A DNA stretch of 64,000 bases from Thermodesulfatator indicus DSM 15286 (lineage in GTDB: Bacteria > Desulfobacterota > Thermodesulfobacteria > Thermodesulfobacteriales > Thermodesulfatatoraceae): NCBI RefSeq assembly GCF_000217795.1, contig NC_015681.1:1851244-1915243 (forward strand), written 5' to 3'. The notes under the pieces are model-generated. The model searched no databases. It was not told the origin of the DNA and was given only the letters and a program-made list of their open reading frames with translations. This document shows, piece by piece, positions 1-18,875 of the stretch (the stretch's first letter is position 1; each line of letters starts with the position of its first letter). Made by a program: the position numbers and the translations under genes.

Positions 1-117
1 GCCTTGTGTATGGGGTTTGATCCCAAACAGGTAGCAGCTATTCACGAAATACCTAGGGAAGAAATTATCGCTCGTATTCAGAGCGAAGAGCGTCTTAAAG
101 AAAAACAGGAGGGTTAA
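1..117 (+). CDS. C-terminal end of a probable heterodisulfide reductase subunit B (partial)
   Basis: An open frame enters from the left edge and stops at 115-117, giving 38 residues. It begins ALCMGFDPKQ and continues with HEIPREE, which resembles the C-terminus of HdrB proteins (a pattern of the type LAMGLSPKELGLELHRIP). HdrB carries the cysteine-rich CCG domains that hold the noncubane FeS clusters; these lie outside the window. The stop is 2 bases before mvhD, and its last codons carry the mvhD ribosome binding site (GGAGGG). An hdr gene directly before mvhD would fit the electron-bifurcating Mvh-Hdr complex. Only the tail is visible, so another Hdr-type or unrelated subunit is possible. 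Confidence 0.5.
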   Translation, partial: ALCMGFDPKQVAAIHEIPREEIIARIQSEERLKEKQEG

Positions 118-119
118 CT

Positions 120-530
120 ATGGAATTTACACCTAACATTATATGTTTTGCTTGTCACTGGTGATGCTACGGAGCAGCAGATGCGGCAGGTGTCGCTCGG
201 TTCAAGTATCCACCAACAGTTAAATTTATAAGGGTGCCGTGTTCAGGTAGGGTAGATGTAGAGTTTGTAATGGAAGCATTAGCCAGAGGAGCCGACGGTG
301 TTATCGTTGGTGGGTGCCGTTTAGGAGAGTGCCATTATCAGGTGGGCAATTACAAAGCCAATAAGCGTTTTGAAATATTTAAAAAACTTTTGGCAGATCT
401 TGGTTTTGAGCCTGACCGTGTAAAGACCTTGTGGATTTCGGGTTCTGAAGGGCAAAAATTGGCACAAGAGGTTACGGCTTTTAGTGAACATATTCAAAAT
501 CTTGGTCCGAATCCATTGAAGGCAAGTTAG
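120..530 (+). CDS. mvhD: MvhD, iron-sulfur subunit of F420-non-reducing hydrogenase, selenoprotein
   Basis: 136 residues if the in-frame TGA at 162-164 is read as selenocysteine (residue 15). MvhD is the small [2Fe-2S] protein that passes electrons from the MvhAG hydrogenase to HdrA. The N-terminus reads MEFTPNIICFACHW-U-CYGAAD, matching the family motif C-x-W-C-x-Y-G-x-x-D with Sec in place of a cysteine. Later cysteines (PCSGRVD, GGCRLGECHY) are also those expected. The start at 120 has GGAGGG 5-10 bases upstream. A gene finder that ignores Sec would begin at 234 and lose the first 38 residues. A hairpin 18 bases after the TGA fits a bacterial SECIS. The next gene, mvhG, starts 21 bases downstream. 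Confidence 0.93.
183..196 (+). promoter_or_regulatory. Putative SECIS element of mvhD
   Basis: The mRNA can form a five-pair stem, GCGGC with GUCGC (one G-U pair), around the loop AGGU. The loop lies about 24 bases after the UGA at 162-164. Bacterial SECIS elements recognised by SelB have an apical loop with a conserved GU, 16-37 bases after the UGA, as in E. coli fdhF. The match is by eye; energy was not computed. Confidence 0.7.
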
Positions 531-551
531 ATTAATTTTTAGGAGGATCCT

Positions 552-1511
552 ATGTCCAATAAAATAAAGTTAGGGGTCTTGTTGGCCGGTGGATGTGCCG
601 GTTGTGAAATGGCCATCGTAGATCTATCTGAAAGATTACTTGATGCCCTAGAGCACCTAGAGGTTGTTTTCTGGGCGCCAACGGTGGCTGACGTGAAGTA
701 TAAAGATTTAGAGGCTATGCCAGAAGGGGCCATAGATGTAGCACTGGTGGATGGCATGGTTCGTCTCGACGAGCATGAGCATATGCTAAAGGTATTGCGT
801 GAAAAGTCTAAAGTCTTGGTGGCCTTTGGAAGCTGTGCTTCTGAGGGTTGTATCCCTGGTATGGCTAACCTTTTTAAGGCTGAAGATTTATTAAAACAGG
901 GTTATGTAGATACTTTTAGTACTGATAATCCTGATGGCATTTTGCCTCAGCCTGAGTGGAAAGAAGATGGTAAATATGACCTTACGCTTCCGCGCTTCTT
1001 AGATAAGGTTTCTCCTATATCTTCAGTAGTAGAAGTTGATTATTTCATGGGTGGATGTCCGCCTCATCCTGATTTCGTTTGGGAAGCTATTTTAGCTATT
1101 GTTCAGGGAAATCTTCCGCCAAAAGGTTCTTGGATTACCTGTGGAAAATCAGTTTGTGAATTTTGTGGGCGCAATCCTGCTATCCAGGGCCGTACTCGCG
1201 AAATGGCTAAAGAAGTCAAGCGTACCTTTGAAGGCGCTCCAGATGATGGAAAGTGCCTTTTAGAACAGGGTTATGTTTGTTTTGGCCCTTTTACCCAGGG
1301 AGATTGTAAAGCACTTTGCCCCAAAATTGGAATCCCCTGTCGTGGTTGCGGAGGTCCGCTTCCGGGAGTTAAGGATTACGGAGCCAAGGCGGTTAGTGCC
1401 CTCGGTAGCATGCTAACTGACGAAGCAGTAGAACAATTACTTAACAAATATACTAATTTGGCCCAGTTTGTTTATCGCTATTCTTTACCGGCCAGTTTGC
1501 TTAAGAAATAA
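552..1511 (+). CDS. mvhG: MvhG, small subunit of F420-non-reducing [NiFe] hydrogenase
   Basis: 319 residues, cytoplasmic (no Tat signal). MvhG holds the three FeS clusters that carry electrons from the NiFe site in MvhA to MvhD. Visible cluster cysteines are GGCAGCEMA near the N-terminus, GSCASEGC around residue 95, GGCPPHP around residue 170, and a cysteine-rich C-terminal third including CGKSVCEFCG, GDCKALCP and PCRGCGGPLP. The ribosome binding site AGGAGG lies 4-9 bases before the ATG. It sits between mvhD and mvhA in a compact operon. Length and motif order are normal for group 3c hydrogenases. Confidence 0.95.
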   Translation: MSNKIKLGVLLAGGCAGCEMAIVDLSERLLDALEHLEVVFWAPTVADVKYKDLEAMPEGAIDVALVDGMVRLDEHEHMLKVLREKSKVLVAFGSCASEGCIPGMANLFKAEDLLKQGYVDTFSTDNPDGILPQPEWKEDGKYDLTLPRFLDKVSPISSVVEVDYFMGGCPPHPDFVWEAILAIVQGNLPPKGSWITCGKSVCEFCGRNPAIQGRTREMAKEVKRTFEGAPDDGKCLLEQGYVCFGPFTQGDCKALCPKIGIPCRGCGGPLPGVKDYGAKAVSALGSMLTDEAVEQLLNKYTNLAQFVYRYSLPASLLKK

Positions 1512-1529
1512 GTTTGAGGAGGATCCTTG

Positions 1530-2999
1530 ATGAAAAAGATAACTATAGAACCGATTACCCGTCTGGAAGGGCACGGGAAGATTGCTATTTTTCTTGATGA
1601 TAATGGAAATGTTGATAATGCCTTCTTTCAGGTAGTTGAATTTCGCGGCTATGAGAAGTTTGTTCAAGGAATGCCGATGGAAGAGGTGCCCCGGACGGTT
1701 TCTACCATCTGTGGTGTTTGTCGAGGGGTTCACTTTACCGCTTCGATGAAGGCCTTGGACCAGATTTTTGGTGTAGAACCAACACCGGTGGCTAGGAAAC
1801 TTAGAGAAATTTTCTTTAATGCCCATTATGTTGAAGACCATGCTGCTATTCTTTATGCCCTTGGTCTTCCTGATTTTGTAGTTGGGCCTGAGGCTTCACC
1901 AGCGGAGCGTAACGTGATAGGTCTTATTCAGAAGGTCGGAGTGGATATAGGCCGTCAAGTACTTAAAAGACGTGGTTATGCTGTTAAAATTTTCGAACTC
2001 TTAGGTGGTAAACCCAACCATCCTGTGGCTGCGCTTCCTGGAGGTTGGGCTAAGAAGCTTTCTGAAGAAGAACGCCAGCAGATACTTGAATGGGGTAAAG
2101 AGCTGGTAGAACTTGGCAAGTTTACTCTGCAGGTTTTTGAAGATGTAGTTCTTAAGAACGAGAAGTACATGGAACTCATCACCGGCGATATGTATAAAGT
2201 GGTGGTGAATTACATGGGCGGTGTAGATGAGAACGGTATTTTAACTTCTTATTATGAGCCAAAAGTGCAAAAGATAGTTTCTCATAATGGTCAAGAGATT
2301 GGTTCCTTTACCGGTAAGCAATACCTGGATTTTATAGCGGAAAGGGTTCTCCCCTGGAGTTATCTCAAGATGCCTTATCTTAAGCAAATGGGCTGGAAAG
2401 GTTATGATGATGGTGAAGATACCAGTCTTTACGCTGTTGGTCCTTTACCTCGTATAAATATAGCTAAAGGCTTCAGCACTCCTCTGGCTCAAGAGGCTTA
2501 CGAGAAATTTTGGGATACTTTTAAAGAACGTCCTGTTCACTACATTCAAGCCTATCACTGGGCTAGGGCTATTGAACTCCTTCACGCAGCTGAACGCATT
2601 GTTGAATTAGCCAGTGATCCGGAGATTACTTCTCCTGAGACTCGTCGTCACGATTTTAACATTACTGGTGAAGGAGTGGGCATTGTAGAAGCTCCTCGTG
2701 GAACTCTCATCCATCATTATCAAACTGACGATAAGGGTTATGTGACCAATGCTAATCTTATTGTAGCAACCACTCATAATAAAGGTCCTATTAACGCGGC
2801 TATTCGGAAGGCGGCTAAGCACTTCATCAAAGAGGGCAAGGTTGATGAGGCTATTTTAAATTACGTGGAAATGGCTTTTCGTCCCTTTGACTTATGCTTA
2901 GCCTGTGCCACTCATGCTGCTGGTCCAGGCGTTACTCCTATAGAAATCTTTGTTTACGATAAAAATGGTAATCTCCAGCAGAAACTTAGGAATTTCTAG
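1530..2999 (+). CDS. mvhA: MvhA, large catalytic subunit of F420-non-reducing [NiFe] hydrogenase
   Basis: 489 residues. It binds the NiFe(CN)2CO centre and splits H2. The N-terminal signature EPITRLEGHG and the first ligand motif ICGVC (in RTVSTICGVCRGVH) are present. The second ligand motif is DLCLACATH rather than the usual DPCxxC, so proline is replaced by leucine. About 26 residues follow the histidine at which maturation proteases usually cleave. A TTG at 1527 is in frame, but the ATG at 1530 is better spaced from GAGGAGG (1516-1522). The gene ends before a strong terminator. The maturation protease is encoded about 250 bases further on. Confidence 0.95.
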   Translation: MKKITIEPITRLEGHGKIAIFLDDNGNVDNAFFQVVEFRGYEKFVQGMPMEEVPRTVSTICGVCRGVHFTASMKALDQIFGVEPTPVARKLREIFFNAHYVEDHAAILYALGLPDFVVGPEASPAERNVIGLIQKVGVDIGRQVLKRRGYAVKIFELLGGKPNHPVAALPGGWAKKLSEEERQQILEWGKELVELGKFTLQVFEDVVLKNEKYMELITGDMYKVVVNYMGGVDENGILTSYYEPKVQKIVSHNGQEIGSFTGKQYLDFIAERVLPWSYLKMPYLKQMGWKGYDDGEDTSLYAVGPLPRINIAKGFSTPLAQEAYEKFWDTFKERPVHYIQAYHWARAIELLHAAERIVELASDPEITSPETRRHDFNITGEGVGIVEAPRGTLIHHYQTDDKGYVTNANLIVATTHNKGPINAAIRKAAKHFIKEGKVDEAILNYVEMAFRPFDLCLACATHAAGPGVTPIEIFVYDKNGNLQQKLRNF

Positions 3000-3028
3000 C
3001 TGGTTTATTTTATAAAACGGCTATTTCA

Positions 3029-3053
3029 GGAGGGCCAAAAGGCCCTCCTTTTT
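3029..3053 (+). terminator. Rho-independent terminator of the mvh operon
   Basis: Perfect 8-bp stem GGAGGGCC / GGCCCTCC with an AAAA loop, followed by five T, 29 bases after the mvhA stop codon. It should end the hdr-mvhDGA transcript before the repeat and the protease gene. Confidence 0.9.
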
Positions 3054-3133
3054 ATTTTGTGAAAATGCTATATTTTGTTTTATTAATAGAAGGCTTCATT
3101 TCGCTTTAGCGCCCTCACAATAACACCACCTCT

Positions 3134-3212
3134 GTCACTGCGAGGAGGCCCGTAGGGCCACGAAGCAGTCCCTGGGATTGCTTCGGCCTCTAGCGAGGCC
3201 TCGCAATGACAG
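3134..3212. repeat. Dispersed GC-rich palindromic repeat, copy 1
   Basis: Begins GTCACTGCGAGG and ends CGCAATGACAG, so its ends are near-inverted copies of each other; inside are CGAAGCAGTCCCTGGGATTGCTTCGG and GAGGCCTCG-type arms. The same core recurs about ten times in the window, nearly always between genes. It fills most of the gap between the mvh terminator and the maturation protease. Confidence 0.85.
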
Positions 3213-3252
3213 GGTTAAATTAAAATGAAAGTTGGGAGAAACTCTTTTAAAT

Positions 3253-3720
3253 ATGGCTACCAAAAAAGTTATCCTTATAGGTATTGGGAATCCTTATTTA
3301 CAGGATGATAGGGCAGGGCTTGAAGTGGTTTCTCGTTTAAGAGAGCTAGGTTGTCCCTGGGATCTTGAAGAACTCTATACCACCGGCCTTGAATTGCTTG
3401 ACAAGATTAAAGGTTATGATGAAGTCATAATAGTTGATGCGGCTCAGTGGGGGAAAGAACCGGGCACTATAATCGAATTAAGCGGAGAGGAATTAAGGCT
3501 TCCTCATGTTTCTTCGGTTAATACCCACGCCATGACTTTAGGGCACATAATTGAGTTAGGCTACGTGGCTTTTCCTGATGAGATGCCCAAAAAATTTACG
3601 GCTTATTTGATAGAAGCCGAGCATTTAGATGAATTTTCTCAGGTAATGTCTCCTCGAATTGAAGAAGCTATAGAAAAGCTGGTTAAGCTTTTTACTGAAA
3701 TTTGGAAAAGCTCACTTTAG
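3253..3720 (+). CDS. Hydrogenase maturation protease (HycI/HyaD/FrhD family)
   Basis: 155 residues. These endopeptidases remove the C-terminal tail of the [NiFe] large subunit after nickel insertion. The N-terminus KVILIGIGNPYLQDDRAG carries the family motif GxGNxxxxDDxxG, with the first nickel-sensing acidic residue in the DD pair. DAAQWG and NTHAMTLG supply the later acidic and histidine positions. The start is the ATG at 3253, because family members begin a few residues before VILIGIGN; an in-frame TTG at 3232 would extend it into repeat-flanking DNA. Its natural substrate here is MvhA. Confidence 0.88.
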   Translation: MATKKVILIGIGNPYLQDDRAGLEVVSRLRELGCPWDLEELYTTGLELLDKIKGYDEVIIVDAAQWGKEPGTIIELSGEELRLPHVSSVNTHAMTLGHIIELGYVAFPDEMPKKFTAYLIEAEHLDEFSQVMSPRIEEAIEKLVKLFTEIWKSSL

Positions 3721-3795
3721 CGCTTGTCCTTTTCTTTTTGTTGTTTATTTTTTCTTACAAAACTATAATTACAAAACTATAAAAGGAGATTCACA

Positions 3796-4518
3796 ATGAA
3801 GGTGATATTAGCTATAGGAAGGCCTGTTCGTCTTGCGGCTGGTTTTATTAGTCCTGAGGAAAAAGGCGAACTCCTTATGAAGGAAGAAGTTGATCTTGAC
3901 GAAGGGGTGTCGGGAAAGAGCCTTTTTGATTTTAACGATTATTTTGAAGAATTTGGTATTGACTTCGATTCTCTAGAAGATTTTGAAGGAAAAGATATCC
4001 TTGGTCTTGATGTTGACAGGTTGAAAAAACAAGCTGTTTATTTGCCTTTTAGACTTCCTAAAAAAGGAGATTTGTTGTTATTTAAACGATTTTTAATAAG
4101 TGATGAAGAATTTGGTGCCAAATTTATTTTCCCTTATGATAATTTGGAACCTTCTAAATTGATTCCCTTGGTTTTTGACTTTGGTGATTTTTGTGGTGCA
4201 GAAAGCTTATTAGTGGGTTTTTTCTACATAAAGGGAGATGATAATCTGGAAGGGTTGCGAGAATTTTTGAACGTAGAGCTTAAAAAACTTCCTCGAGGCA
4301 AAGAGCCTTTATTTTTGAAAGAATTAGACGCCGCCTTGACGGAAGGGAGATTACCATTTGGCCCTAAAATTCCTGGAGAAATAAGTTTTCATCCGGCGGT
4401 TCCCCTTGAGGCAGAGTTCGAAGAACATTATGAAGTTCTCGTTATAGAGAATCGTGCCGGAGAAACCGAATGTTATTCACTGGAAATAAAGACTGAAAGA
4501 CCTATTATAGAAATTTAA
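3796..4518 (+). CDS. Unrecognised acidic protein, 240 residues
   Basis: I do not recognise this family. The ribosome binding site AAAGGAGAT is 6 bases before the ATG. The protein has no signal peptide, no membrane segment and no cysteine cluster. It is strongly acidic, with an Asp/Glu/Phe-rich stretch at residues 35-70. It reads as a soluble cytoplasmic protein with alternating hydrophobic strands (VILAIGRPVRLAAG at the start, YEVLVIENRAGE near the end). It stands alone between the hydrogenase protease and a repeat copy, on the same strand as the hydrogenase genes, with a 75-base gap before it. A hydrogenase-related role is only a guess from position. Confidence 0.7.
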   Translation: MKVILAIGRPVRLAAGFISPEEKGELLMKEEVDLDEGVSGKSLFDFNDYFEEFGIDFDSLEDFEGKDILGLDVDRLKKQAVYLPFRLPKKGDLLLFKRFLISDEEFGAKFIFPYDNLEPSKLIPLVFDFGDFCGAESLLVGFFYIKGDDNLEGLREFLNVELKKLPRGKEPLFLKELDAALTEGRLPFGPKIPGEISFHPAVPLEAEFEEHYEVLVIENRAGETECYSLEIKTERPIIEI

Positions 4519-4532
4519 CTTGCTTTAATGAA

Positions 4533-4705
4533 GTCATTAGCGATGGCATTGCGAGCGAAGCAATCCTTCTCCCGAGCGCAGCTAAGGGATCTTTTAGGCA
4601 GCTTCGGCCTCTAACGAGGAATTGCAGTGGCAGTGAGGGTTACTTCGCCTTAGCTGATTATATCAGCGATGACACTTTGTTATCTAAAAAACGCTCGCAT
4701 TAATA
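4533..4705. repeat. Dispersed palindromic repeat, copy 2 (long form)
   Basis: Contains CATTGCGAGCGAAGCAATCC, CTTCGGCCTCTAACGAGG and a tail, TTAGCTGATTATATCAGCGATGACACTTTGTTATCTAAAAAACGCTCGCATTAAT in part, that also follows the copies at 24.4 and 52.3 kb. The shared tail suggests that the mobile unit is longer than the palindrome. It lies between convergent genes. Confidence 0.75.
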
Positions 4706-4715
4706 GACTTAATCG

Positions 4716-5807
4716 TTATTTATTTTCAGGAAGGAGAAAAGAAGGCACTGGGCTTAAAGGAAGGGAAGTTTTGGGGCCTCCTTCTACTTCTAACACCTGA
4801 ACACGGTGATTGAAAAGATCAGTTATATATATACGCCCGAAGCTATCTATCATTACGTCTGAAGGATAATTAAACCAGCCGGGGTTCCAGCCTCGACCTC
4901 CAAACTCAAATTTTAGTTTACCCGTATCATAGTCATATACTAAACCGGTATGTCTCATATAATCCACTACATATATTAATTTTTTTTGGGGATCGGCACA
5001 TATTCCGCGAGGCCGGCTTAATTTACCCCCGCCACCACCTTTTTGTCCTCCCTTGAAAAGAAATTTTTCGTTATGGTCATACACATAGAAACGTCCCATT
5101 TCTTCACTAAGGAGATAAATTCTACCTTGACTGTCTACAAAAACATCCGTAATAATCGCTTCTTTTTCCGGTGTTTCAGGGGTAAATCTATCTTTAGGAG
5201 CTAAGGTTTTTATATAATTTCCTTCTTTATCTAGAACTATTAAGCCCCTATAACCTATCCCGGTAACATAGAGTTTGCCATTTTGACCTATAGCTATTGA
5301 ACGAGGATGAAAATTTTCTGCTCCTTCAAAGCCTTTTAGAAAAATGTCTTTTATCTTTATAGCGGCCGCGTTAAACACAGAAATATGAGGACGAGATTCA
5401 TAAGAACTGGTTCCCTGGCATAGATAAATATTGCCTTGTTTATCGATAGCTAATCCAGCTGGGGCAAAAACTCCTCTCCCTTTACCCATTGAAAAAATAG
5501 GAAAGAGATCAGGACTGTAAACAATTATTCTTCCCTTAGCCGTATCAACTACGTATAACTCATCCCTTCCAGGATCATAGGCCAAATATGATGGGAAAGA
5601 CAATTTGTTACCTTGATCGTCTTTATCGATAATAGCAATGACTTTTGGTTCTGCTCTTTGAGCGGTGCCTTCAAGTGCTTTTTTTAAAGCCTCTTCACTT
5701 ACCTGGTCAGTAACTTGTTGTGAATAACTGGGGGACAACCAAAAGAAAAGGCCCAGCAAAACAATAATAATTAACCATTTGCTGGGCCTTAAATAATTGC
5801 TAATCAT
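4716..5807 (-). CDS. Secreted NHL-repeat beta-propeller protein
   Basis: 363 residues. The N-terminus has a basic residue, then a hydrophobic segment (WLIIIVLLGLFFWL) ending SPSYSQQ, a likely Sec signal peptide. The rest contains NHL-type blades with the signatures YLAYDPGRDELYVVDTAKG, GLAIDKQGNIYL, SIAIGQNGKLYVTG, DVFVDSQGRIYL and DVMIDSFGRIYITDLFNHRV, as in six-bladed propellers. NHL proteins next to multiheme cytochromes are common in metal-reducing bacteria; their role is probably structural or in assembly. The start lies 5 bases after the stop of the upstream cytochrome, suggesting translational coupling. A terminator-like hairpin lies inside codons 6-20. Confidence 0.88.
   Translation of the reverse strand: MISNYLRPSKWLIIIVLLGLFFWLSPSYSQQVTDQVSEEALKKALEGTAQRAEPKVIAIIDKDDQGNKLSFPSYLAYDPGRDELYVVDTAKGRIIVYSPDLFPIFSMGKGRGVFAPAGLAIDKQGNIYLCQGTSSYESRPHISVFNAAAIKIKDIFLKGFEGAENFHPRSIAIGQNGKLYVTGIGYRGLIVLDKEGNYIKTLAPKDRFTPETPEKEAIITDVFVDSQGRIYLLSEEMGRFYVYDHNEKFLFKGGQKGGGGGKLSRPRGICADPQKKLIYVVDYMRHTGLVYDYDTGKLKFEFGGRGWNPGWFNYPSDVMIDSFGRIYITDLFNHRVQVLEVEGGPKTSLPLSPVPSFLLPENK
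5748..5790 (-). terminator. Intragenic terminator-like hairpin at the start of the NHL gene
   Basis: On the minus strand a perfect 13-bp stem (AAGGCCCAGCAAA with TTTGCTGGGCCTT, 17-base loop) is followed by TTCTTTT. It begins 17 bases after the NHL start codon and encodes part of the signal peptide. Read from the upstream cytochrome genes it has every mark of a rho-independent terminator. Confidence 0.65.
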
Positions 5808-5812
5808 ATCTT

Positions 5813-6898
5813 TTACTGAAATACACCCTTGTTAGTATGACAGACAAAACAGCCGCAATTAGTGGAGTCTCCCACGGTGCATTGAGAGTAATCCCACCTC
5901 AGAATGTCGTCGTAGGGAGTACCATGGGGCCTATGGCATGATAGGCACATAACCATATCCTGTCCTGGAGTAACAGTGGCACTAGGTCCTCCTAAAGCTG
6001 TTAGGTCAGGCCGAGCCACTGGAGCCAAAGGATTATAAACAGTGTAATTAGCATATTCTCCAGAGTTCGGAATAACTGCATCAGAAGGATGCCTTAACCA
6101 GGGAGAGCCGCCGTTTTCGTCATCGTTTTCTATATGAAAATTCCCATGACAACCGGTACAAAAAGCGGTCATAGTGTTAGCTTGGATACTCATAAATCCA
6201 CCAGTTCCTGATAAATTACCGGGTTTTCCAAAATATTCGTTGTGGTCAGAAGCACTAACTGTGGCTTCCCAATCATTGTCTTCAATTCCTTCTACTCCAT
6301 AACCTGGCGAATGAGCAGCAGCTAAGAACCTATACCAACCGCCATTTTCACCCACTACATTATTGTAATTACCATTTGGATGGTCATTGACATGGTGTTT
6401 AGGATAAAGGTGACAGCCGGTACAGCCATATTTGTTCTCTATAACAGATGGTTGGCTAAGGGTGGAATGACAGCTGTTAGTACAACTTATGGCGGCTCCA
6501 GGAGCCGCATTCAAAAAGTCATCCTGTTCATTTAAAAATACGTTGTGGCCTTTAGGGTCTCCTACCTGGCCATCGGTATTCCCAAGCCCTTCCTTTACCC
6601 ACCAAAAGTTTCCGCCAGCTAGATAATTGGTGGGGGCATTTCCACCAGTATAAAGAACTACAGGAACAATGCTATCACCCAACATATAAGTAGTAGAAGA
6701 TTCACTTGAGGAATGGCAGCCTACACAATCATATTTGGTAAGCCCCATATGAGGCCCGGATTCGCTTACTATCTGGCCATTTTGAGAGTTATGCATAGTG
6801 TGACAATTTGAACAAACTCCAGAAACACGGGCGTTTCCGTAGGAAGTTAAAGCTAAAATAGTTAAGAAAACTGTAAACAATGTGAAAAGAAATTTCAT
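5813..6898 (-). CDS. Secreted multiheme c-type cytochrome, OmcS/OmcE-like
   Basis: 361 residues with a signal peptide (MKFLFTLFTVFLTILALTSYGNA). It has six CXXCH motifs (CSNCH, CVGCH, CTGCH, CTGCH, CLSCH, CFVCH) and one CX3CH (CTNSCH). The order of features matches what I recall of Geobacter OmcS: N-terminal CxxCHTMHNS, AGGNFWWV followed by KGHNV, CTGCHGNFH before WLRHPSD, CLSCHRPHGTPYDDILRWDY, and a CxxCH at the extreme C-terminus. The C-terminal motif is CGCFVCH with an extra cysteine. It lies 50 bases downstream of a related cytochrome and just before the NHL gene. A filament-forming role is inferred. Confidence 0.88.
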   Translation of the reverse strand: MKFLFTLFTVFLTILALTSYGNARVSGVCSNCHTMHNSQNGQIVSESGPHMGLTKYDCVGCHSSSESSTTYMLGDSIVPVVLYTGGNAPTNYLAGGNFWWVKEGLGNTDGQVGDPKGHNVFLNEQDDFLNAAPGAAISCTNSCHSTLSQPSVIENKYGCTGCHLYPKHHVNDHPNGNYNNVVGENGGWYRFLAAAHSPGYGVEGIEDNDWEATVSASDHNEYFGKPGNLSGTGGFMSIQANTMTAFCTGCHGNFHIENDDENGGSPWLRHPSDAVIPNSGEYANYTVYNPLAPVARPDLTALGGPSATVTPGQDMVMCLSCHRPHGTPYDDILRWDYSQCTVGDSTNCGCFVCHTNKGVFQ

Positions 6899-6899
6899 A

Positions 6900-6937
6900 C
6901 CCCCCTCCTGTAAGGAGGGGGAATTATCTCCCCCTCC
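6900..6937 (-). promoter_or_regulatory. Hairpin with alternative pairing to the ribosome binding site
   Basis: In the minus-strand transcript between the two cytochrome genes, GGAGGGGGA pairs with TTCCCCCTCC in a hairpin at 6914-6937. Six bases later comes the ribosome binding site GGAGGGGGG (6900-6908) for the 5813-6898 gene. The same CCCCCUCC can pair with either G-rich segment, so the hairpin could free or hide the binding site. Seen by eye only. Confidence 0.5.
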
Positions 6938-6948
6938 TTTTTTCTTGC

Positions 6949-8037
6949 CTAGTATTTGTTAGTGTGGCAGGCAAAACAGCCACACTGATCACCAACTCCG
7001 CTGGAAGCGTTACAGTTAGCATAATTCCAACGCAAAATATCGGCGTAAGGAGAACCGTGGGCTCGGTGACAGGAGATACATAAAACTATATCATCACTAC
7101 CACTAAATTGAACGGTAGAAAGGACTCCACCGGTGAGATCACTACTTCCTAAAGGCGCTCCAGGCCAATAGGTACCAGCTGTCCCGAAAGGTCCAGGATA
7201 GGCCGTGTAGCCAGCGCCTGCTGCAGAGCTTAGAGCAAAATCAGAGGGGTGTCTAAGCCAGGGAGAGCCGCTACCACTATAGCTTATTTCATTTCCACTG
7301 TGGAACTGCCCGTGACACTCGGCGCAGAGGTAATTAATAGAGGCACTATCAGTTGGTGTGGTAAAAGAGGAGCGATTAACAGCGTAATATTGGTTGTGTT
7401 CACTGCTAGTAGGCTGATATTCCCAATCGTTGTCTTCAATGCCCTTGATTCCATACAAGAAACGGAAGCTTGTTCCTACAGTAGATCCGTCAATAGTGCT
7501 GTCATCAGCATGGTGAGCACCACGAATGGCAGCAAAATCGTCTTCTTTATCATGTGTACCATGACAACCATAGGTACCAGCACAGGTTAATTGTTTGCTC
7601 CAGGTAGCTTCGTTGTTAGCTAAGGCACCGTTGGCGTTAAAGCTGGTATCCCAGCCAGGAGGGGTCATCCCGATAGCACCATCTACGTTAGCTATGTTTT
7701 TAACGTTGTGTCCGCTGGCATCATCACCGTTTTTAACCCAGTAAAAGTTACCACCGGCTAAGGTATTTCCTTCAATACCAAATGTGCCATATGTCGGTTC
7801 GCTTGGACTTAGAACATAAGGAATATTATTGGTTCCAGTGTTAGTTCCCGTATGGCAACCTACACAGTCCCCGATAGTAAGAGCTCGATAAGGACCGCCT
7901 TCTACTACACTCTGTCCACCTTGCGAGTTGTGCATGGTGTGGCAATCAGCACACTGCCCTTGCACTCTAGCTAAGGTAGATTTTGGTAAAAATCCTATCA
8001 AAGTTAAACAGATTAGAAATAAAAACCAACGTTTCAT
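6949..8037 (-). CDS. Secreted multiheme c-type cytochrome, OmcS/OmcE-like, with a CX5CH motif
   Basis: 362 residues with signal peptide MKRWFLFLICLTLIGFLP. Heme motifs are CADCH(TMHNS), CVGCH, CAECH, CISCH and CFACH, plus an atypical CAGTYGCH (CX5CH) in third position. Long stretches match the cytochrome at 18876-19934: CHTGTN.GTN.IPYVLS, GNTLAGGNFYWV, GHNVK, GAHHADD and GIKG.ED..WEY. It also shares the 5813-6898 architecture, including LRHPSD and CISCHRAHGSPYADILRW. A strong ribosome binding site (AAGGAGGG) precedes the ATG. It is the first gene of the minus-strand unit, divergent from the beta-barrel operon. Probably a secreted, filament-type hexaheme cytochrome. Confidence 0.88.
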   Translation of the reverse strand: MKRWFLFLICLTLIGFLPKSTLARVQGQCADCHTMHNSQGGQSVVEGGPYRALTIGDCVGCHTGTNTGTNNIPYVLSPSEPTYGTFGIEGNTLAGGNFYWVKNGDDASGHNVKNIANVDGAIGMTPPGWDTSFNANGALANNEATWSKQLTCAGTYGCHGTHDKEDDFAAIRGAHHADDSTIDGSTVGTSFRFLYGIKGIEDNDWEYQPTSSEHNQYYAVNRSSFTTPTDSASINYLCAECHGQFHSGNEISYSGSGSPWLRHPSDFALSSAAGAGYTAYPGPFGTAGTYWPGAPLGSSDLTGGVLSTVQFSGSDDIVLCISCHRAHGSPYADILRWNYANCNASSGVGDQCGCFACHTNKY

Positions 8038-8430
8038 AACCCTCCCTCCTTAAAAAATAGATTTTTTTAGGTATTTACTATGTTTTGATAAATTATTCTG
8101 AATTAACCACCTCCTTTTTAATATTTCTTTCTAATTTTAATGATAAGACATTTTTTGTTCCAAAACTAATAAAAAATTTTTTAGAACTCCAGAATATTCA
8201 ATAAAATAAACTTAATTTGGTTCAAAAAAACCAAAAATATTCACAAATTTCCTTGATGTTTGTAACAATAAAAGAATTCTTTATTAAAAATAGCAAACTA
8301 AATATTTCAATTTTTAAGAATAAAATATTCTATAATCTCCAAATTTTTATTATTTTTTCTTTTTTTCTTAATAAAATGTTTTTTTTCACAGCTTGAGTTT
8401 TAAAGGAACAAAAGCTAATATCCCTCGCAA
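8038..8430. other. AT-rich divergent intergenic region
   Basis: 393 bases without a gene, with long A and T runs, between the divergent cytochrome units. It must hold promoters in both directions. I found no TGGCAC-N5-TTGC sigma-54 site and no riboswitch; sigma-70 hexamers cannot be chosen with confidence in sequence this AT-rich. Confidence 0.6.
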
Positions 8431-10380
8431 ATGTTTAAATTTTTTTTAGCTTTTTGGTCTATTATAGTTATTAACGTTTTTTGCTCGGCTTGGGCCCTCA
8501 ATTTTATGGGGGACTGGCGGTACCTTGAAACCAAGGACGAGCCAGAGACTCTTTTTCAAGTTTATTCGCTGACTTTGTCTTCACAGGCTACCAATAATCT
8601 CATTTTAGGTACAACTTTTAGGTATAATCGAACTTCTCAGGGGGATAGTTATAGGGAAACGCTTACACCCGTTCTCTCTTTGTCCCTACGTAATGATTTT
8701 TTTAATTTTAATGTTAGCGCTACAGCCACTGAACAACATGGTACAGAAAGTAGAGATTTATCTAGCCGTTCTTGGAATGCTGATCTTAGTTCTTCATATA
8801 TAAAAGGTATAAATTCAAGAATTTATTTTGGCCGCTCTAAACAAAAAGATGGAGCCACCTCTCATTTAATTAACCAAAAAAGTGATTATTGGGGACTAAA
8901 TTTAAGCAAAGATTTTAGAAATTTTGATTTATATTACGATTATAGGATTAGCCATGGAGAAAATTATGTTTTGAAATCTACCACTAACACTTATTCACAT
9001 CTTGTTAAATTGAACTATGCTGGTTCTTTTGATAAATTTTATTATTCATTTGGACAACAATTTAATTATACTAAAACTAAATGGCAAGCAGAACTAATTG
9101 GTGGAAAAGCCGATTTTCCTATAAATATTTCAGTAGAATGGTATATAAATAACTCTTTAGATAGTTGGGATGGTAAAAATCTTCAAGATTTTGATGATGG
9201 TATTATTGATGATGATTATCTAATTATTGATTTAGGAATAGAAGAGATAGGATTGTTAGAGTTTTATTATGATACTGTTAATTGGTATGCTATTCCAAGT
9301 AGCATAAAATGGGATATCTATTATAGTAATGACAAAATTACTTGGTCTTTGTTGGTCAGTGATGTTAGTCTTCCTTTTGATTTTTCTGGTTTAGGCTCTT
9401 TAAATTTTTCTAAAGCCCGTTATTTAAAACTTGTTCCTAAAACATTTTCTGATTTAAAATTCAATTCTCCACAATTTCGTGCTTATAAATATATTACTTC
9501 TTCTCAATATAAGACTACTTTTAAAACATATCGTACATCTTTGGCCCTTTCGTATAACTTTTCAGAAAATCTTATTTCTTCTTATTCCTTCTCTCTTAAT
9601 AGAGCCGAGCCAAGCCCTGGGCCAGATTCTAAAGATTATATACATAGTGTTTCTATTTCCTGGATTCCTAATAAATTTTTTCAGCCCACTGTTTCGGCCT
9701 CAAAGACCAAAAATATAAAAGATAAACAACCAGATTTAATTATTGATAATTTATCTTTTTCGGTTTTTTCAGATATTTTGCCTACATTGGATATTTCTTA
9801 TGGCTATACTCATACCAATGTCAAAGAAAACGATGTAAAAAAGGTTACAAATGATAATTTTAATATAAGCACTTTTGCCAAAATTTATCCTGATTTAGAT
9901 TTTAGATGGGATATCTCTATTGGAAAATCCAAAAACTACGAAAATGATTTAACTTCTAAAACATTATCTTCGCGTACTAATGCTATAGCAAGATTGAAAC
10001 CAACTATTACTACAACTTTTACATATCAGTATGATTATAGTAACAATGATTTGTCTTCTACAACTACCCATAATTTTATTTTTGATTTGAGTTGGACTAT
10101 TTCTAAGAATTGCTCATTTCATGGTTCGGAAAACATCAAATTTACAGAAGGCGAAACCAATATTAATTCTTTTTATTCTTTATGGTTTTCCTTAACTCCT
10201 AGAACTCAAATTAATTTTCAATATTCAGGTAATAGAAATGGAACTGACACTGACCAATTTTCAGGTTTTCTGTCGTGGAAAATTAGTCGATATTTATCTT
10301 TTAAGTCTAATTATACCTGGCTTAAGACAGGTGATGACACATCTTGGTCTTGGATGGTTAATTTAACGGCTAAATTTTAG
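8431..10380 (+). CDS. Outer-membrane beta-barrel (porin-like) with inserted discoidin-like domain
   Basis: 649 residues. A signal peptide (KFFLAFWSIIVINVFCSAWA) precedes a long chain of alternating amphipathic strands rich in Ser, Tyr, Asn and Thr, ending in phenylalanine (NLTAKF), as outer-membrane proteins do. Residues about 225-350 differ: LDSWDGKNLQDFDDG, IKWDIYYSNDKITW and ARYLKLVPK resemble an F5/8 type C (discoidin) fold. First gene of the AT-rich operon and followed after 9 bases by a CsgG-like lipoprotein. By analogy with MtrB and OmbB it may form the sheath of an electron conduit, or a channel for cytochrome export. Neither is proven. The ribosome binding site is weak. Confidence 0.8.
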   Translation: MFKFFLAFWSIIVINVFCSAWALNFMGDWRYLETKDEPETLFQVYSLTLSSQATNNLILGTTFRYNRTSQGDSYRETLTPVLSLSLRNDFFNFNVSATATEQHGTESRDLSSRSWNADLSSSYIKGINSRIYFGRSKQKDGATSHLINQKSDYWGLNLSKDFRNFDLYYDYRISHGENYVLKSTTNTYSHLVKLNYAGSFDKFYYSFGQQFNYTKTKWQAELIGGKADFPINISVEWYINNSLDSWDGKNLQDFDDGIIDDDYLIIDLGIEEIGLLEFYYDTVNWYAIPSSIKWDIYYSNDKITWSLLVSDVSLPFDFSGLGSLNFSKARYLKLVPKTFSDLKFNSPQFRAYKYITSSQYKTTFKTYRTSLALSYNFSENLISSYSFSLNRAEPSPGPDSKDYIHSVSISWIPNKFFQPTVSASKTKNIKDKQPDLIIDNLSFSVFSDILPTLDISYGYTHTNVKENDVKKVTNDNFNISTFAKIYPDLDFRWDISIGKSKNYENDLTSKTLSSRTNAIARLKPTITTTFTYQYDYSNNDLSSTTTHNFIFDLSWTISKNCSFHGSENIKFTEGETNINSFYSLWFSLTPRTQINFQYSGNRNGTDTDQFSGFLSWKISRYLSFKSNYTWLKTGDDTSWSWMVNLTAKF

Positions 10381-10389
10381 GAGGTGATT

Positions 10390-10959
10390 ATGAAATATTT
10401 TAAAGTCATTTTATCTCTGTTTTTATTTTTATTTATATCATCTTGTGGTTCTTCTTATGTGCAAAAGTCTTTTGTAAGGTCAGGGGTTGATATAGGATAT
10501 ATAAAAAAAGTAGCGGTTCTGACTTTCCAGAACAATAGTCAAGATAATTTTGCTGCAGAAAGATTAAGAAATATTGTAATTACTGAAATACTTTCAAGAG
10601 GTATTTTTGATGTAATAGATAAATCTTTGGTTGATACGGTTTTACTAGAAGAAGGCATAACCGAGCAAACCATATATAATAAAATTACTTTACGGAGAAT
10701 AGCAAAAAAATTGGGGGTTCAGGCCTTAATAACTGGTTCTGTTGATACTTATGAAATTGTACGTGAAGGTACCTATAGTTATCCTGTAGTGGCCATCACC
10801 TTAACCCTTATTGATGGTTCTACTGGGGAAATCGTATGGCGGGCCAGTGGTTCACTTACTGGATATAGTACTATTGGCCGAATATTCGGGCTCAAGCCAA
10901 AAGATTTGACCCAACTCAGTTTCGAGCTGGTTCAGAATCTTCTAAAACAATTAAGTTAA
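10390..10959 (+). CDS. CsgG-like lipoprotein
   Basis: 189 residues. A short signal peptide ends in a lipobox (FISSCGSS). KKVAVLTFQNNSQDNFAAERLRN, a helix, then FDVIDKSLVDTVLLEEGI, RRIAKKLGVQALITGSVDTYE and VAITLTLIDGSTGEIVWRASG follow the fold order of the CsgG / LpoB / FlgO periplasmic domain. CsgG itself is the outer-membrane pore that secretes curli subunits, but this protein lacks a visible transmembrane hairpin, so it may be a periplasmic lipoprotein cap or scaffold. The start is the ATG at 10390, 4 bases after AGGAGGTG; an in-frame GTG at 10384 overlaps the binding site. First of three CsgG-like proteins here. Confidence 0.8.
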   Translation: MKYFKVILSLFLFLFISSCGSSYVQKSFVRSGVDIGYIKKVAVLTFQNNSQDNFAAERLRNIVITEILSRGIFDVIDKSLVDTVLLEEGITEQTIYNKITLRRIAKKLGVQALITGSVDTYEIVREGTYSYPVVAITLTLIDGSTGEIVWRASGSLTGYSTIGRIFGLKPKDLTQLSFELVQNLLKQLS

Positions 10960-11069
10960 ATTTTTTAGATGTTTTTGATTGTTTTGGATAATTATTTTTG
11001 TTTTGATGTTTTTGGAGAAATTCAAGTAAAATTTATTATAAAAAGATAATACATTGTTATTTTATAAAA

Positions 11070-12554
11070 ATGAAAAATTTTTTCCTATTTATTATCATAT
11101 TTATATTGTGTTTAAGCGTTGGTAACGCTAATTCCAAAATTGTAATATTACCATTTGAAGACCTTTCGAAAGATATCAATGGTATAAATTTTGAGATTCC
11201 AACTTTAATAGCGCAATCTCTTGCAGATAACAATATAACAGTTATTACTCCAAAAGAAGTATTGCCTTTTTTGGCAGAAAATCGGATTAGATGGGTAGGC
11301 TGGCTTGATAGGATTACTGCTATTAAGTTAGCTAGAAAATATCAAGCAAGTTTAATAATGGTTGGTACTGTTACCGAAAATAATAAAAATACTTCATCTT
11401 CATCTCTAGGAATTACTGTACAGTTAATTAGGCCAAAAGACTATAGTATTGTGTGGGCAAAAACTATAGTATCTTCTTCTAAAGAAGAAGTTAGCTTTCT
11501 AGCTCTTAAAAAAGTAGATTATCATATTATTAAATACGAAGTTATTCACAATTTAATTGCTAGCTTACCTATACGTGTTAAAAAATCTATTTATGAACCC
11601 CCAGAAGTACAGATTTCAGAAGCTTTTATATCTCCTCGTAGAATAAAAGGGAACGAGAAAGTTACCTGTGCTGTACGTTTAGATATATCTGGTCCTCCCC
11701 CTAAAGAAGTTTATTTTTTCTACCAAGATAGAAAAATAAAAGCTCAAAGGAAAGATTCTCTTTATATAGCAAGTTGGAAAGCTCCTAAAAAGGAAGGTAG
11801 ATATTTTATAAATATGGAACTTTATTGGCCTGATTTAGGTCTTAAAAAGAAAATATTTTTATCTGATTTTAGAGTAGATAATACTCCTCCAACTTTAGGA
11901 CTAAAGTTATCAAAAGGGAAAAATATTAATGGAAAATTAGCTTTTAATAAATATATTTATTGTATTCCTAAATTGAAGCATCCAGAACCAATAGCTAGAT
12001 GGTTATTCGAGGTAATTGATAAAAAGTCCAAAAAGATTTTGTTTAAAGAAGATAGACCTGGCCAACTTCCTAAAAAGTTTGTTTGGAGAGGAAAAGATCG
12101 TCAGGGATATTTATTGCCAAGTGGTCTATATGTTATTCGTCTTAAAGTTTGGGATTTAGCGGGAAATATAGCCCAGGCACAAACTGAAGTTTTGTTTGTT
12201 CGTAATCCTCCTCAAATTAACTTATTAGCAGAAAAAAGAAGTGATGATAAAATTCTTCTTAAATTAAATTTTTCGAAACATTTATTACCTATCGATTATA
12301 TTAGATTAGAGATATGGGATGATGAGGGAAATTTATTAAAAGAAGTAAATATTAATGGCGAAGATCTTGAAAAAAAGAAAAATATTTTATTCCAAGTAAA
12401 AAAATCAAAAAGTATATTTTATTCATTAGAAGCTAGAGATATTATAGGTAATAAAAAAATTATAAAAAATTTTCCATTATCTACTGTTTTGATTCAAGCA
12501 AAAAAAGAAAATAAGAAAAAAGAGAAAGAAAATATATGGATAGAAGATTTCTAA
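11070..12554 (+). CDS. Secreted two-domain protein: CsgG-like N-terminus, FlgD-like Ig C-terminus
   Basis: 494 residues with a signal peptide (FFLFIIIFILCLSVGNA). Residues about 22-170 (KIVILPFEDLSKD, LIAQSLADNNITVITPKEV, IKLARKYQASLIMVGTV) follow the CsgG-type alpha/beta pattern of the neighbour. Two beta-sandwich regions follow; the second has LPKKFVWRGKDRQGYLLPSGLYVIRLKVWDLAGN in pieces, the FlgD / T9SS-type Ig signature. The last 20 residues are Lys/Glu-rich. It starts 110 bases after the previous gene and overlaps the next by 19 bases. Likely periplasmic; I infer a scaffold or gating role beside the lipoproteins. No enzyme motif is present. Confidence 0.72.
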   Translation: MKNFFLFIIIFILCLSVGNANSKIVILPFEDLSKDINGINFEIPTLIAQSLADNNITVITPKEVLPFLAENRIRWVGWLDRITAIKLARKYQASLIMVGTVTENNKNTSSSSLGITVQLIRPKDYSIVWAKTIVSSSKEEVSFLALKKVDYHIIKYEVIHNLIASLPIRVKKSIYEPPEVQISEAFISPRRIKGNEKVTCAVRLDISGPPPKEVYFFYQDRKIKAQRKDSLYIASWKAPKKEGRYFINMELYWPDLGLKKKIFLSDFRVDNTPPTLGLKLSKGKNINGKLAFNKYIYCIPKLKHPEPIARWLFEVIDKKSKKILFKEDRPGQLPKKFVWRGKDRQGYLLPSGLYVIRLKVWDLAGNIAQAQTEVLFVRNPPQINLLAEKRSDDKILLKLNFSKHLLPIDYIRLEIWDDEGNLLKEVNINGEDLEKKKNILFQVKKSKSIFYSLEARDIIGNKKIIKNFPLSTVLIQAKKENKKKEKENIWIEDF

Positions 12555-13102
12555 TTTTGATATATTTAGTCTTTTTTATAAGTGCATGTTCAAAAAATGT
12601 TCCTGAAATTAGGATAACAAAAAATTTTTCCTCAAAAACTTGTAGAGTTATCGTTTTGCCTTTTGAAAACCAAACTAAAGATCCTACAATTAATAGAGTC
12701 TTTTATAGAATATTAATTGATTCTTTAATTGAAGAAGGGTTATTTGTAGTCCCTGAAGGCCAAGTTCGCAGATTTTTTATTATGGAACGATACTTGGTTG
12801 GAGAAAATATTCCTTTAAATACAATTAAACTTTTAGCTGAGAGAACTAACACAAAAATTTTTATTGACGGTAGTATTTTAACCTATGAAAAAAATGAAAA
12901 AAATTTAAAATTAGCTTTTATAATAAATATTAAGGACGCCTATAGCGGTAAAATTTTATGTTCTACTTATCATGTTAGAACTTCTGAAGATTATAGAAAA
13001 ATACTGCATTTTGGTAAAGTTTATACTACTTCCGGTTTAATAAAAAAGATGATTAATGAGGTGTTAATGGAATGGAGACGAAAAGGACTTTTCAGTTGTT
13101 AA
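12536..13102 (+). CDS. Second CsgG-like lipoprotein
   Basis: 188 residues. A signal peptide with a lipobox (FFISACSKN) precedes KTCRVIVLPFENQTKDPTINRVFYRILID, SLIEEGLFVVPEGQVRRF, IKLLAERTNTKIFIDGSILTYE and AFIINIKDAYSGKILCSTYH. The order matches the first CsgG-like lipoprotein: strand, helix, GLFVV segment, a helix before a 'G-S-I' strand, and a D-A-Y-S-G-K turn. It overlaps both neighbours (19 and 31 bases), so translation is probably coupled. Having three paralogous domains in one operon suggests a hetero-oligomeric periplasmic ring or collar. That is inference; the family is diverse and includes LpoB-type regulators. Confidence 0.72.
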   Translation: MDRRFLILIYLVFFISACSKNVPEIRITKNFSSKTCRVIVLPFENQTKDPTINRVFYRILIDSLIEEGLFVVPEGQVRRFFIMERYLVGENIPLNTIKLLAERTNTKIFIDGSILTYEKNEKNLKLAFIINIKDAYSGKILCSTYHVRTSEDYRKILHFGKVYTTSGLIKKMINEVLMEWRRKGLFSC

Positions 13103-14742
13103 ATTTAAAAAATAGTTTAGTTGTTTTTTCTTTGTTTTATTTAATTATTATTTTTTCAAATTCTGCTTATCCTTTTTGGGGAGATAATTATCTCTTTAAA
13201 ATAGATAATAGAAAATATACTAAAGAAGATTTTCTTACTTGGTGGAAATATTGGAAGGAACCAAACATGAAATTTCCAGAGACTCCAGATCCTTTTATTG
13301 ACTGGCTTTTAATTGCAAACGAAGCAAAAAGAATGGAATTAGATTCTGATCCTCTTTATAAGCATAAAATCAGAGTATTTTTGGAAGTAAGGGGGCTATT
13401 ACTTTTAAAAAATGAGGAGGTTGATAAAAAAATAGATATTTCTCAAAAACGTCTTTGGAAAGAATATAAAACTAATTATATTCCACGTTTAAAAATAAAG
13501 GCTTTAATAACACAAGATTATAAAGTGGCTAACAATTGGAAGAAATCTATAAAAACTAAAGAGGCTTTTGATGCACTTTACGAAAAGCTAGAAAAAGAAA
13601 AAAAAGCTCGCGATTTTGGTTGGGAAAGACCTATTACTATTCCTGAGGAAATCAGAAATGAGGTTTTAAAGGCAAATAAAGATGAAATAGTTGGACCAGT
13701 CAAATATAAAAATACCTATTTTTTGTTGTTTATAGAAGATAAATTAGGGTCTGATCCTACTGATTTTAATACTGTAAAAAGAGAAATTATTAAAAAAATC
13801 CGTAAAAAAGATGAAGCTTATTATACAGAAAAGCTAATTGAAAATCTTAAAAAGAAATATAATGTCAAAATAAATTGGGATATTTTAAAACTAATATCCT
13901 TAGATACTATTCCCGAAAATTTAAAAGAAAAGACAGTTTTGGTTATTGGCGATAGAGAATTAAAAGCAATTCAGTTTTGGGAAAAATTTAAAAAAGAAAT
14001 TGACCTTAGATTTCATAAAAGGAAATTGTCTTCTGAAGACATAGATAAAATGAAACATTTCGTAATTAATACTTATATTTCTCAGACATTGACGAGTCTT
14101 GAAGCTTTAAATAGGCACTATGAAAAAGAGCCACCACTTAAGGATCTTTATGAATTTTATAAAAAACAACTATTAGTTGTCTTGTTTGAAGAAAAAATAA
14201 TTAAACCACAAATAAAAGTTACTGAAGAAGAAATGAAAGATTTTTATACTAAAAATAAAGAGAAATTTACAAGACCTTCTATGGTAGAAATTGCTGTTAT
14301 AAAAACTAGAGATCCAAAATTGATTAAAAACGTATATAAACGTATTAAACAAGGAGAGAATTTTTTCAAAATTGGAAAAGAAATCCAATTTCATACTTTA
14401 CGGCCAGAAAAGTATTTTTTAAATCAGTTAGTTCCTGAAATGAGAGATGCCATTAAGGGGTTAAAGCCTAACGAAGTATCATCTATCATTGAGTTTAAGA
14501 GAGGTGATAATACTTGGTATTGTTTAGTATATTTAATTAAACACTATCCAGAAAAAGCCCATCCTTATGAAATAGTTAAGGATGATATAAGGAGAATTTT
14601 AGAGCAGGAAAAATTTAATAGTTTAAAAAAAGAATATATTAATAAATTACGCGCTCAAACGAATATTGTTATCAATGAAAAAGAGTGGTTAAAACTCAAG
14701 CGAGAGATGATGGAGGACAATAATGTCAATTTGGCCCAATAA
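13072..14742 (+). CDS. SurA/PrsA-like periplasmic chaperone with parvulin-type domains
   Basis: 556 residues. A single N-terminal hydrophobic segment (SLVVFSLFYLIIIFSNSAYP) is a signal peptide or anchor. A SurA-type N-terminal helical region (KYTKEDFLTWWKYW) follows. Two PpiC-like regions are visible: one near residues 140-230 (RLKIKALITQDYKVANNWKKS, ARDFGWERPITI, VGPVKYKNTYFLLFIEDK) and one near 400-500 (ITVTEEEMKDFY-type helix, MVEIAVIKT, VSSIIEFKRGDNTWYCLVYLI). Sequence drift in the active-site strands suggests chaperone rather than isomerase activity. It overlaps the flanking genes. It could hold unfolded or heme-loaded cytochromes before export. Confidence 0.78.
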   Translation: METKRTFQLLNLKNSLVVFSLFYLIIIFSNSAYPFWGDNYLFKIDNRKYTKEDFLTWWKYWKEPNMKFPETPDPFIDWLLIANEAKRMELDSDPLYKHKIRVFLEVRGLLLLKNEEVDKKIDISQKRLWKEYKTNYIPRLKIKALITQDYKVANNWKKSIKTKEAFDALYEKLEKEKKARDFGWERPITIPEEIRNEVLKANKDEIVGPVKYKNTYFLLFIEDKLGSDPTDFNTVKREIIKKIRKKDEAYYTEKLIENLKKKYNVKINWDILKLISLDTIPENLKEKTVLVIGDRELKAIQFWEKFKKEIDLRFHKRKLSSEDIDKMKHFVINTYISQTLTSLEALNRHYEKEPPLKDLYEFYKKQLLVVLFEEKIIKPQIKVTEEEMKDFYTKNKEKFTRPSMVEIAVIKTRDPKLIKNVYKRIKQGENFFKIGKEIQFHTLRPEKYFLNQLVPEMRDAIKGLKPNEVSSIIEFKRGDNTWYCLVYLIKHYPEKAHPYEIVKDDIRRILEQEKFNSLKKEYINKLRAQTNIVINEKEWLKLKREMMEDNNVNLAQ

Positions 14743-18719: not shown

Positions 18720-18875
18720 GTGTTAAAGTCTAACTTTTTAAAAAAAGTATTTAGGCTCCGCAAAAGTGAATCGTGTTTTAAGTGTTTTAGAAGCGTTACA
18801 AGAAGATATGACTTACTATCATTTGTTTGCAAATACGGAGGAGAAAACAGGAGTTCAAAAATTATTTTTTATTTT

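Follow-up and report, generated by a model that had tools for sequence, protein, structure and literature searches.

The junction between two OmcS-related multiheme cytochrome genes and an NHL beta-propeller gene of Thermodesulfatator indicus carries a terminator-like hairpin that falls within the signal-peptide codons of the NHL gene. Its stem is conserved in relatives through compensatory changes, its position is tied to the stop codon of the upstream cytochrome gene, it is absent from the examined NHL homologs that lack that cytochrome, and in one lineage it has been replaced by a different hairpin. Because the paired shape is kept while the letters change, these bases probably have a dual role, encoding a secretion signal and also limiting the amount of the second protein. 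The reading that we favor, with considerable confidence given the comparative sequence data, is that the hairpin works as a leaky intrinsic terminator for the cytochrome mRNA, over which the NHL frame extends, and that it keeps NHL expression below that of the cytochromes; we infer that the hairpin terminates transcription, that termination is partial, and that its purpose is stoichiometry.

The hairpin and its neighboring genes

The window is a 64,000-nucleotide stretch of the T. indicus genome, which consists of a single contig of 2.32 Mb. The features of the junction are collected in Table 1. A sequence-only reading had described a 13-bp stem with a T-rich tail, in the sense orientation, within the first codons of the NHL gene and 3' of two cytochrome genes, and this description was confirmed. 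The NHL open reading frame starts 5 nt past the stop of the adjacent cytochrome, and the hairpin begins 22 nt past that same stop.

Table 1. Features of the cytochrome-NHL junction, in window positions
Feature	Position	Strand	Basis or remark
NHL beta-propeller gene, 363 aa	4716..5807	minus	ORF; NHL repeat PF01436, E 2.1e-19
Signal-peptide-like N-terminal stretch of the NHL protein, MISNYLRPSKWLIIIVLLGLFFWLSPSYSQ		minus	judged by eye
T-rich tail, TTCTTTTGG	5739..5747	minus	directly 3' of the stem; TTTTCTTTT with the two outer A-U pairs open
Terminator-like hairpin	5748..5790	minus	codons 6-20 of the NHL ORF; covariation and synonymous nulls
Hairpin right arm, TTTGCTGGGCCTT	5760-5748	minus	
Hairpin loop	5777-5761	minus	17 nt
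Hairpin left arm, AAGGCCCAGCAAA	5790-5778	minus	
Multiheme c-type cytochrome, OmcS-related family	5813..6898	minus	directly upstream of NHL; family profile matches OmcS 6ef8, E 3e-26
Second hairpin, cytochrome-cytochrome spacer (6899-6948)	6912..6939	minus	T tail on the plus strand here
Second cytochrome, same OmcS-related family	6949..8037	minus	first gene of the presumed operon

The hairpin has several features of an intrinsic terminator. It is a stable, G+C-rich RNA helix of 13 pairs (7 of them G-C; stem-loop energy, -21.4 kcal/mol) that is conserved, and its stem is followed on the sense strand by a U-tract (TTCTTTT or TTTTCTTTT) that is interrupted and is poorer in the related loci L004 and L005. 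The loop is 17 nt long, and those of the embedded relatives span 6 to 19 nt; a short loop of 3 to 8 nt is usual in Rho-independent terminators but not strictly defining. A consensus terminator scan allowing loops of 3 to 8 nt did not list the NHL hairpin with its 17-nt loop. On the sense strand, a 111-nt stretch folded to -29.3 kcal/mol (z -2.35), with 4 of 200 shuffles equally good, and 66 nt of the plus strand gave a fold z-score of -5.3. A search at gathering thresholds returned no known RNA family within positions 1 to 20000 of the window. The two 11-nt arms of the hairpin, at this kind of spacing, occur at a single place in the whole genome, which rules out a repeated or mobile hairpin.

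The assignment of the upstream genes to the OmcS-type cytochromes is based on sequence homology at the profile level. OmcS (PDB 6ef8) was the sole solved protein confidently matched by a profile of 12 members of the cytochrome family (E 3e-26), whereas the upstream cytochrome searched as a single sequence against solved proteins gave no match at E 0.1. The alignment was built without the cytochromes of loci L009 and L011, the latter being cut by a contig end, and the AlphaFold2 model made from its 12 rows had a mean pLDDT of 32, too poor for use. The likeness to OmcS, the Geobacter nanowire cytochrome (6ef8, 6nef), is a family match over profile positions 42 to 363; OmcS forms nanowires, whereas the window cytochromes are likened to it by profile and are known here from their sequences. 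The match fits the suggestion of the sequence-only reading that many cytochrome subunits may be made per NHL protein, and a subunit that polymerizes would presumably be needed in a different amount from its accessory protein.

The hairpin follows the cytochrome stop codon across relatives

Homologs of the NHL protein were found in 20 of 60 close genomes (E 0.001), in 12 of 41 genomes of the order (E 1e-50), and in 23 of 395 genomes of an even sample of the phylum, the T. indicus genome being included in each count. A contig scan with the NHL protein gave 2 loci, and the order of genome G089 gave a match in 1 of 6 genomes, at a locus already in the set. The locus set comprised the 29 distinct loci with an NHL match of E 1e-50 or better; weaker matches (L002, L017 to L030, and others) were left out, and L003 and L031 proved to be the same DNA, identical over 2,800 bases.

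A cytochrome of the same kind lies directly upstream of the NHL gene at 13 of the 29 loci, namely, all 12 from the order and L034 from another family, and these cytochromes end in CGCF(V/A)CHT. All 13 junctions contain a hairpin with a T-rich tail, starting 8 to 48 nt past the cytochrome stop. At seven of them, the hairpin lies inside the NHL signal-peptide codons, at a distance from the stop of 22 (L001, the T. indicus locus), 23 (L003, L004, and L005), 8 (L006), 21 (L007), or 48 (L034) nt. At the other six, all of family f3, it is intergenic, carries a T6 to T8 tail, and has the NHL start downstream, the distances being 20 (L008 and L009), 28 (L010), 24 (L011), 26 (L012), and 9 (L013) nt. 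The hairpin thus begins 8 to 28 nt past the stop at 12 of the 13 loci, L034 being the one at 48 nt. Since the intergenic hairpins of f3 lie at a similar distance from the stop, it is the cytochrome gene, rather than the NHL start, that the position of the hairpin tracks. In a tree of the loci, the seven embedded and six intergenic cases fall on separate sides, which corresponds to one change, in either direction.

Hairpins were compared by the d'Aubenton-Carafa terminator score, on which embedded hairpins scored -8 to 54 and intergenic hairpins 46 to 71. The embedded hairpins are mostly weaker, and 2 of the 7 fall below the cut-off of zero (L004, -5.4; L005, -7.9), as would be expected if coding compromises them or if leakiness is wanted. 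At the 16 NHL loci without that cytochrome upstream, one of which (L046) has a different 10-heme open reading frame in its place, no comparable hairpin was found (best scores, -27 to -86), and a stricter filter left a weak hairpin at L045 only (-7.8 kcal/mol).

Beyond the 13 junctions, the phylum holds 23 further OmcS-type loci, one per genome, of which 5 have a hairpin scoring above zero within 110 nt of the stop. An NHL-type open reading frame lies near 8 of the 23, in a search that recovered 7 of 7 known pairs as a positive control. These eight frames precede the OmcS-type gene, and seven of them stand behind another heme protein; at the start of those seven, no terminator-like hairpin was found (best scores, -31 to -79). 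The eighth NHL-type gene, that of L088, starts at the edge of the stretch, so that its start is incomplete. The absence of the hairpin from distant NHL genes indicates that it goes with the cytochrome-then-NHL order and not with NHL genes generally. Seven loci from other families (L096, L097, L103, L105, L107, L109, and L110) have the order heme protein, NHL, OmcS type, the reverse of that in the window.

The cytochrome-cytochrome spacer also contains a hairpin at six of the seven loci of the embedded type. In L003, from the closest relative, T. autotrophicus S606, it has a sense-strand T7 tail and a score of 36; the scores are 24 in L007, 11 in L006, 1 in L005, and -20 in L034. The L001 spacer stem is strong and has no sense T tail, and for L004, inspection of the DNA by eye shows a stem. 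The C-rich arm of the strong spacer hairpin in the window could also pair with the Shine-Dalgarno sequence AGGAGGGGGG just 5' of the cytochrome gene that is second in transcription order.

Covariation and coding constraint in the embedded stems

The arms of L001, L003, L004, L005, and L006 can be aligned by codon, with length changes confined to the loop and made up of whole codons, and the five stems form one helix in which 68 of 70 cells are paired. Both sides have changed in 5 of the 14 pairs, and RNAalifold predicted the same 14 pairs. None of 500 shuffles reached the observed percentage of pairing, number of two-sided cells, or covariation score, at least as many two-sided pairs arose in 17 of 500, and at least as many pair types in 54 of 500; because the rows are few (five) and L001 and L003 are close, these are not probabilities. 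Sliding the partner by one column lowered pairing to 56 to 64%. The sequence-only reading had named conservation by compensatory change in related genomes as a check, and both the alignment of the five stems and the RNAalifold prediction bear it out. The stems include six G-U cells, one of them beyond a mismatch, versus no A-C cells, which favors a sense RNA as the paired molecule. Within the helix, third codon positions lie opposite one another, leaving room for silent compensation, and at pair 14-34, second and first codon positions are joined and have changed on both arms. A protein-bound DNA palindrome is an unlikely identity for the element, given that the loop varies from 7 to 19 nt among the five aligned stems and that G-U pairs are used.

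The NHL protein of L007 groups with that of L006 (support, 85/89), but L007 lacks the stem common to the five aligned loci. Slightly past the place of that stem, still within the signal-peptide codons, L007 has a different hairpin of 17 to 18 bp (-35.4 kcal/mol), and its left arm, TTGGGCTTC, aligns by eye where the others have their right arm, CTGGGCCTC; the former right arm seems to have become the new left arm. That L007 keeps the feature and swaps the hairpin argues that termination is conserved, rather than the sequence. The genome with L007 (G005) belongs to the genus of the window, but the NHL protein encoded there clusters with one from a different family (L006), which may reflect transfer or an old paralog.

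In a synonymous null that kept the peptide and drew codons by local usage (3,000 recodings per locus), an equally stable hairpin with a tail score of at least 2.3 arose in 0 recodings of L001, L003, L005, L006, and L007, in 4 of L004, and in 220 of L034. A terminator score as high was reached in 10 recodings of L001, 16 of L003, 18 of L004, 4 of L005, 0 of L006, 0 of L007, and 41 of L034. At L034, where the NHL start is ambiguous, the hairpin is weak (-8.0 kcal/mol); its energy is not significant against the null, and its score is marginal. The double constraint of coding and pairing proposed in the sequence-only reading is visible in these nulls.

As a background, hairpins were sought in the first 105 nt of 430 genes, which a simple longest-ORF rule had called in 464 kb of the T. 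indicus genome. Six had a hairpin of -12 kcal/mol or lower with a T tail, one of which resembles an intergenic terminator with the gene start called too far upstream, and two, the NHL gene and a comEC-like gene, had one of -18 kcal/mol or lower. The comEC-like gene (L049:5045-7240, plus strand; genome positions 170045-172240) has a hairpin of -29.7 kcal/mol in its first codons, over GLFLAWERAF; this region is unevenly kept, with scores at six loci of 19, 5, -42, 15, -46, and -9.

A proposed leaky terminator and alternative readings

In the favored mechanism, a leaky Rho-independent terminator would end many transcripts of the cytochrome operon about 65 to 75 nt past the last cytochrome stop. 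In this lineage, the NHL frame opens between that stop and the hairpin, which places stem and tail in NHL codons: the charged residues that begin the signal peptide are encoded by the left arm, Leu-Gly-Leu in its hydrophobic core by the right arm, and Phe residues by the U-tract. Because the terminator lies 3' of the NHL start codon, a full NHL message must read through it, and transcripts from a promoter 5' of that codon would still meet it, so that NHL expression would be a fraction of cytochrome transcription set by read-through. Against this mechanism count the long loops, the interrupted tail, the two embedded scores below zero, the weak L034 hairpin, and the modest sense-strand z-score. 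It would also have a cost, since terminated transcripts would contain the NHL start codon but no stop codon for that frame. The E. coli results reported in PMC4824070 offer precedents: terminators within the first 100 bp of coding regions function, and a terminator 30 bp past an AUG, behind another gene, retained most of its efficiency. In the same account, terminator efficiency climbs with distance from a stop codon until about 27 to 30 nt, and by analogy the 22 nt at the window junction would lie in the tunable range.

That tuning by a stop codon closer than about 27 to 30 nt (PMC4824070) also bears on a refinement of the leaky terminator, possible though doubtful, in which the ribosome leaving the cytochrome gene re-initiates 5 nt further on, at the NHL start codon, and thereby sets read-through. 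A ribosome in the first NHL codons would cover the left arm and let the polymerase pass; otherwise, the hairpin would form and transcription would end. The geometry permits such gating at L001, L003, and L005, where the stem lies 22 to 23 nt past the cytochrome stop and 17 nt past the first base of the NHL ATG, and the Shine-Dalgarno sequence is weak (-5.3 kcal/mol or weaker) at five of the six embedded loci with a plausible NHL start, L034 being excluded. The exception, L004, has a strong one (-10.2), the spacing of the NHL start varies (L004, 9 nt; L006, 1 nt; L007, 29 nt), the intergenic versions manage without gating, and in the E. coli work of PMC4824070, initiation 30 bp before a terminator cuts efficiency by only about 10%. 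Somewhat more doubtful still is the full form of this idea, in which the signal-peptide codons are a translation-gated terminator read through only upon re-initiation by a ribosome leaving the nanowire-type cytochrome gene. A single dual-use stretch of about 45 to 55 bases would then determine how much cytochrome is made per accessory protein; it would have persisted across families and, in L007, been rebuilt once out of its own right arm.

The remaining readings do without termination. The hairpin might protect the 3' end of the cytochrome mRNA or serve as an RNase processing site, the NHL mRNA being fully made, then cut and lost; the persistence of strong stems where T tails are poorer (L004 and L005), like the strong T. 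indicus spacer stem with no sense T tail, would suit this, but T residues follow the stem at 13 of 13 loci, as T6 to T8 at the six intergenic ones, and we consider it unlikely. That the hairpin merely hampers initiation of NHL translation is distinctly less probable: it is near the start codon, and at L006 begins at the presumed TTG start, but such a block would need no T tail, and the f3 hairpins start 48 to 78 nt upstream of the presumed NHL start. Least credible is chance, or a by-product of signal-peptide codons, in which Leu-Gly-Leu-Phe gives CTGGGCCTTTTC. The peptide does dictate part of the right arm, and the first codons of the comEC-like gene of the same genome hold a similar hairpin; however, the synonymous nulls, the two-sided changes, and the absence of the hairpin at the 16 control loci speak against it, and the comEC region scores above zero at three of six loci, its own genome included.

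The preferred leaky terminator has partial counterparts among known systems. The six intergenic relatives are of the kind of the intra-operon Rho-independent terminators described in PMC4824070, which coordinate the expression of the genes of one operon, and which they resemble in having a hairpin and U-tract some 20 to 30 nt past a stop codon within a presumed operon. Unlike the terminators described there, the NHL hairpin sits in the coding sequence of the next gene and encodes part of its signal peptide. It shares with the pyrBI-type attenuators, as presented in PMC4824070, a terminator within approximately the first 100 nt of a translated frame, but the NHL frame encodes a full secreted-type protein instead of a leader peptide. 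RNA 3' ends internal to open reading frames, as reported for E. coli in PMC7815308, are likewise terminator-like sites inside genes; those are mapped RNA ends in one species, whereas the NHL hairpin is known from sequence, with compensatory conservation across species and families. Among the open-access titles and abstracts listed, none dealt with a terminator in signal-peptide codons or with this junction.

A terminator-like hairpin within a gene is readily written off as noise; the NHL hairpin has comparative evidence behind it. One operon junction retains a terminator-like hairpin, whether intergenic or inside a signal peptide, and the embedded bases covary under protein constraint. If the hairpin does terminate, the junction would be a clean natural case in which to study how protein coding and an RNA signal are maintained together, and to ask whether the amount of a nanowire-type cytochrome relative to an accessory protein is fixed by read-through.

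Elsewhere in the window, positions 18879-19928 of the plus strand hold a third member of the OmcS-type cytochrome family (E 3.9e-102 with the family profile). Two similar intergenic stretches, at 3126-3210 and 4540-4640, are of the GCGAAGCAATCC / CTTCGGCCTCTAGCGAGG type and by eye have the appearance of copies of a short dispersed repeat.
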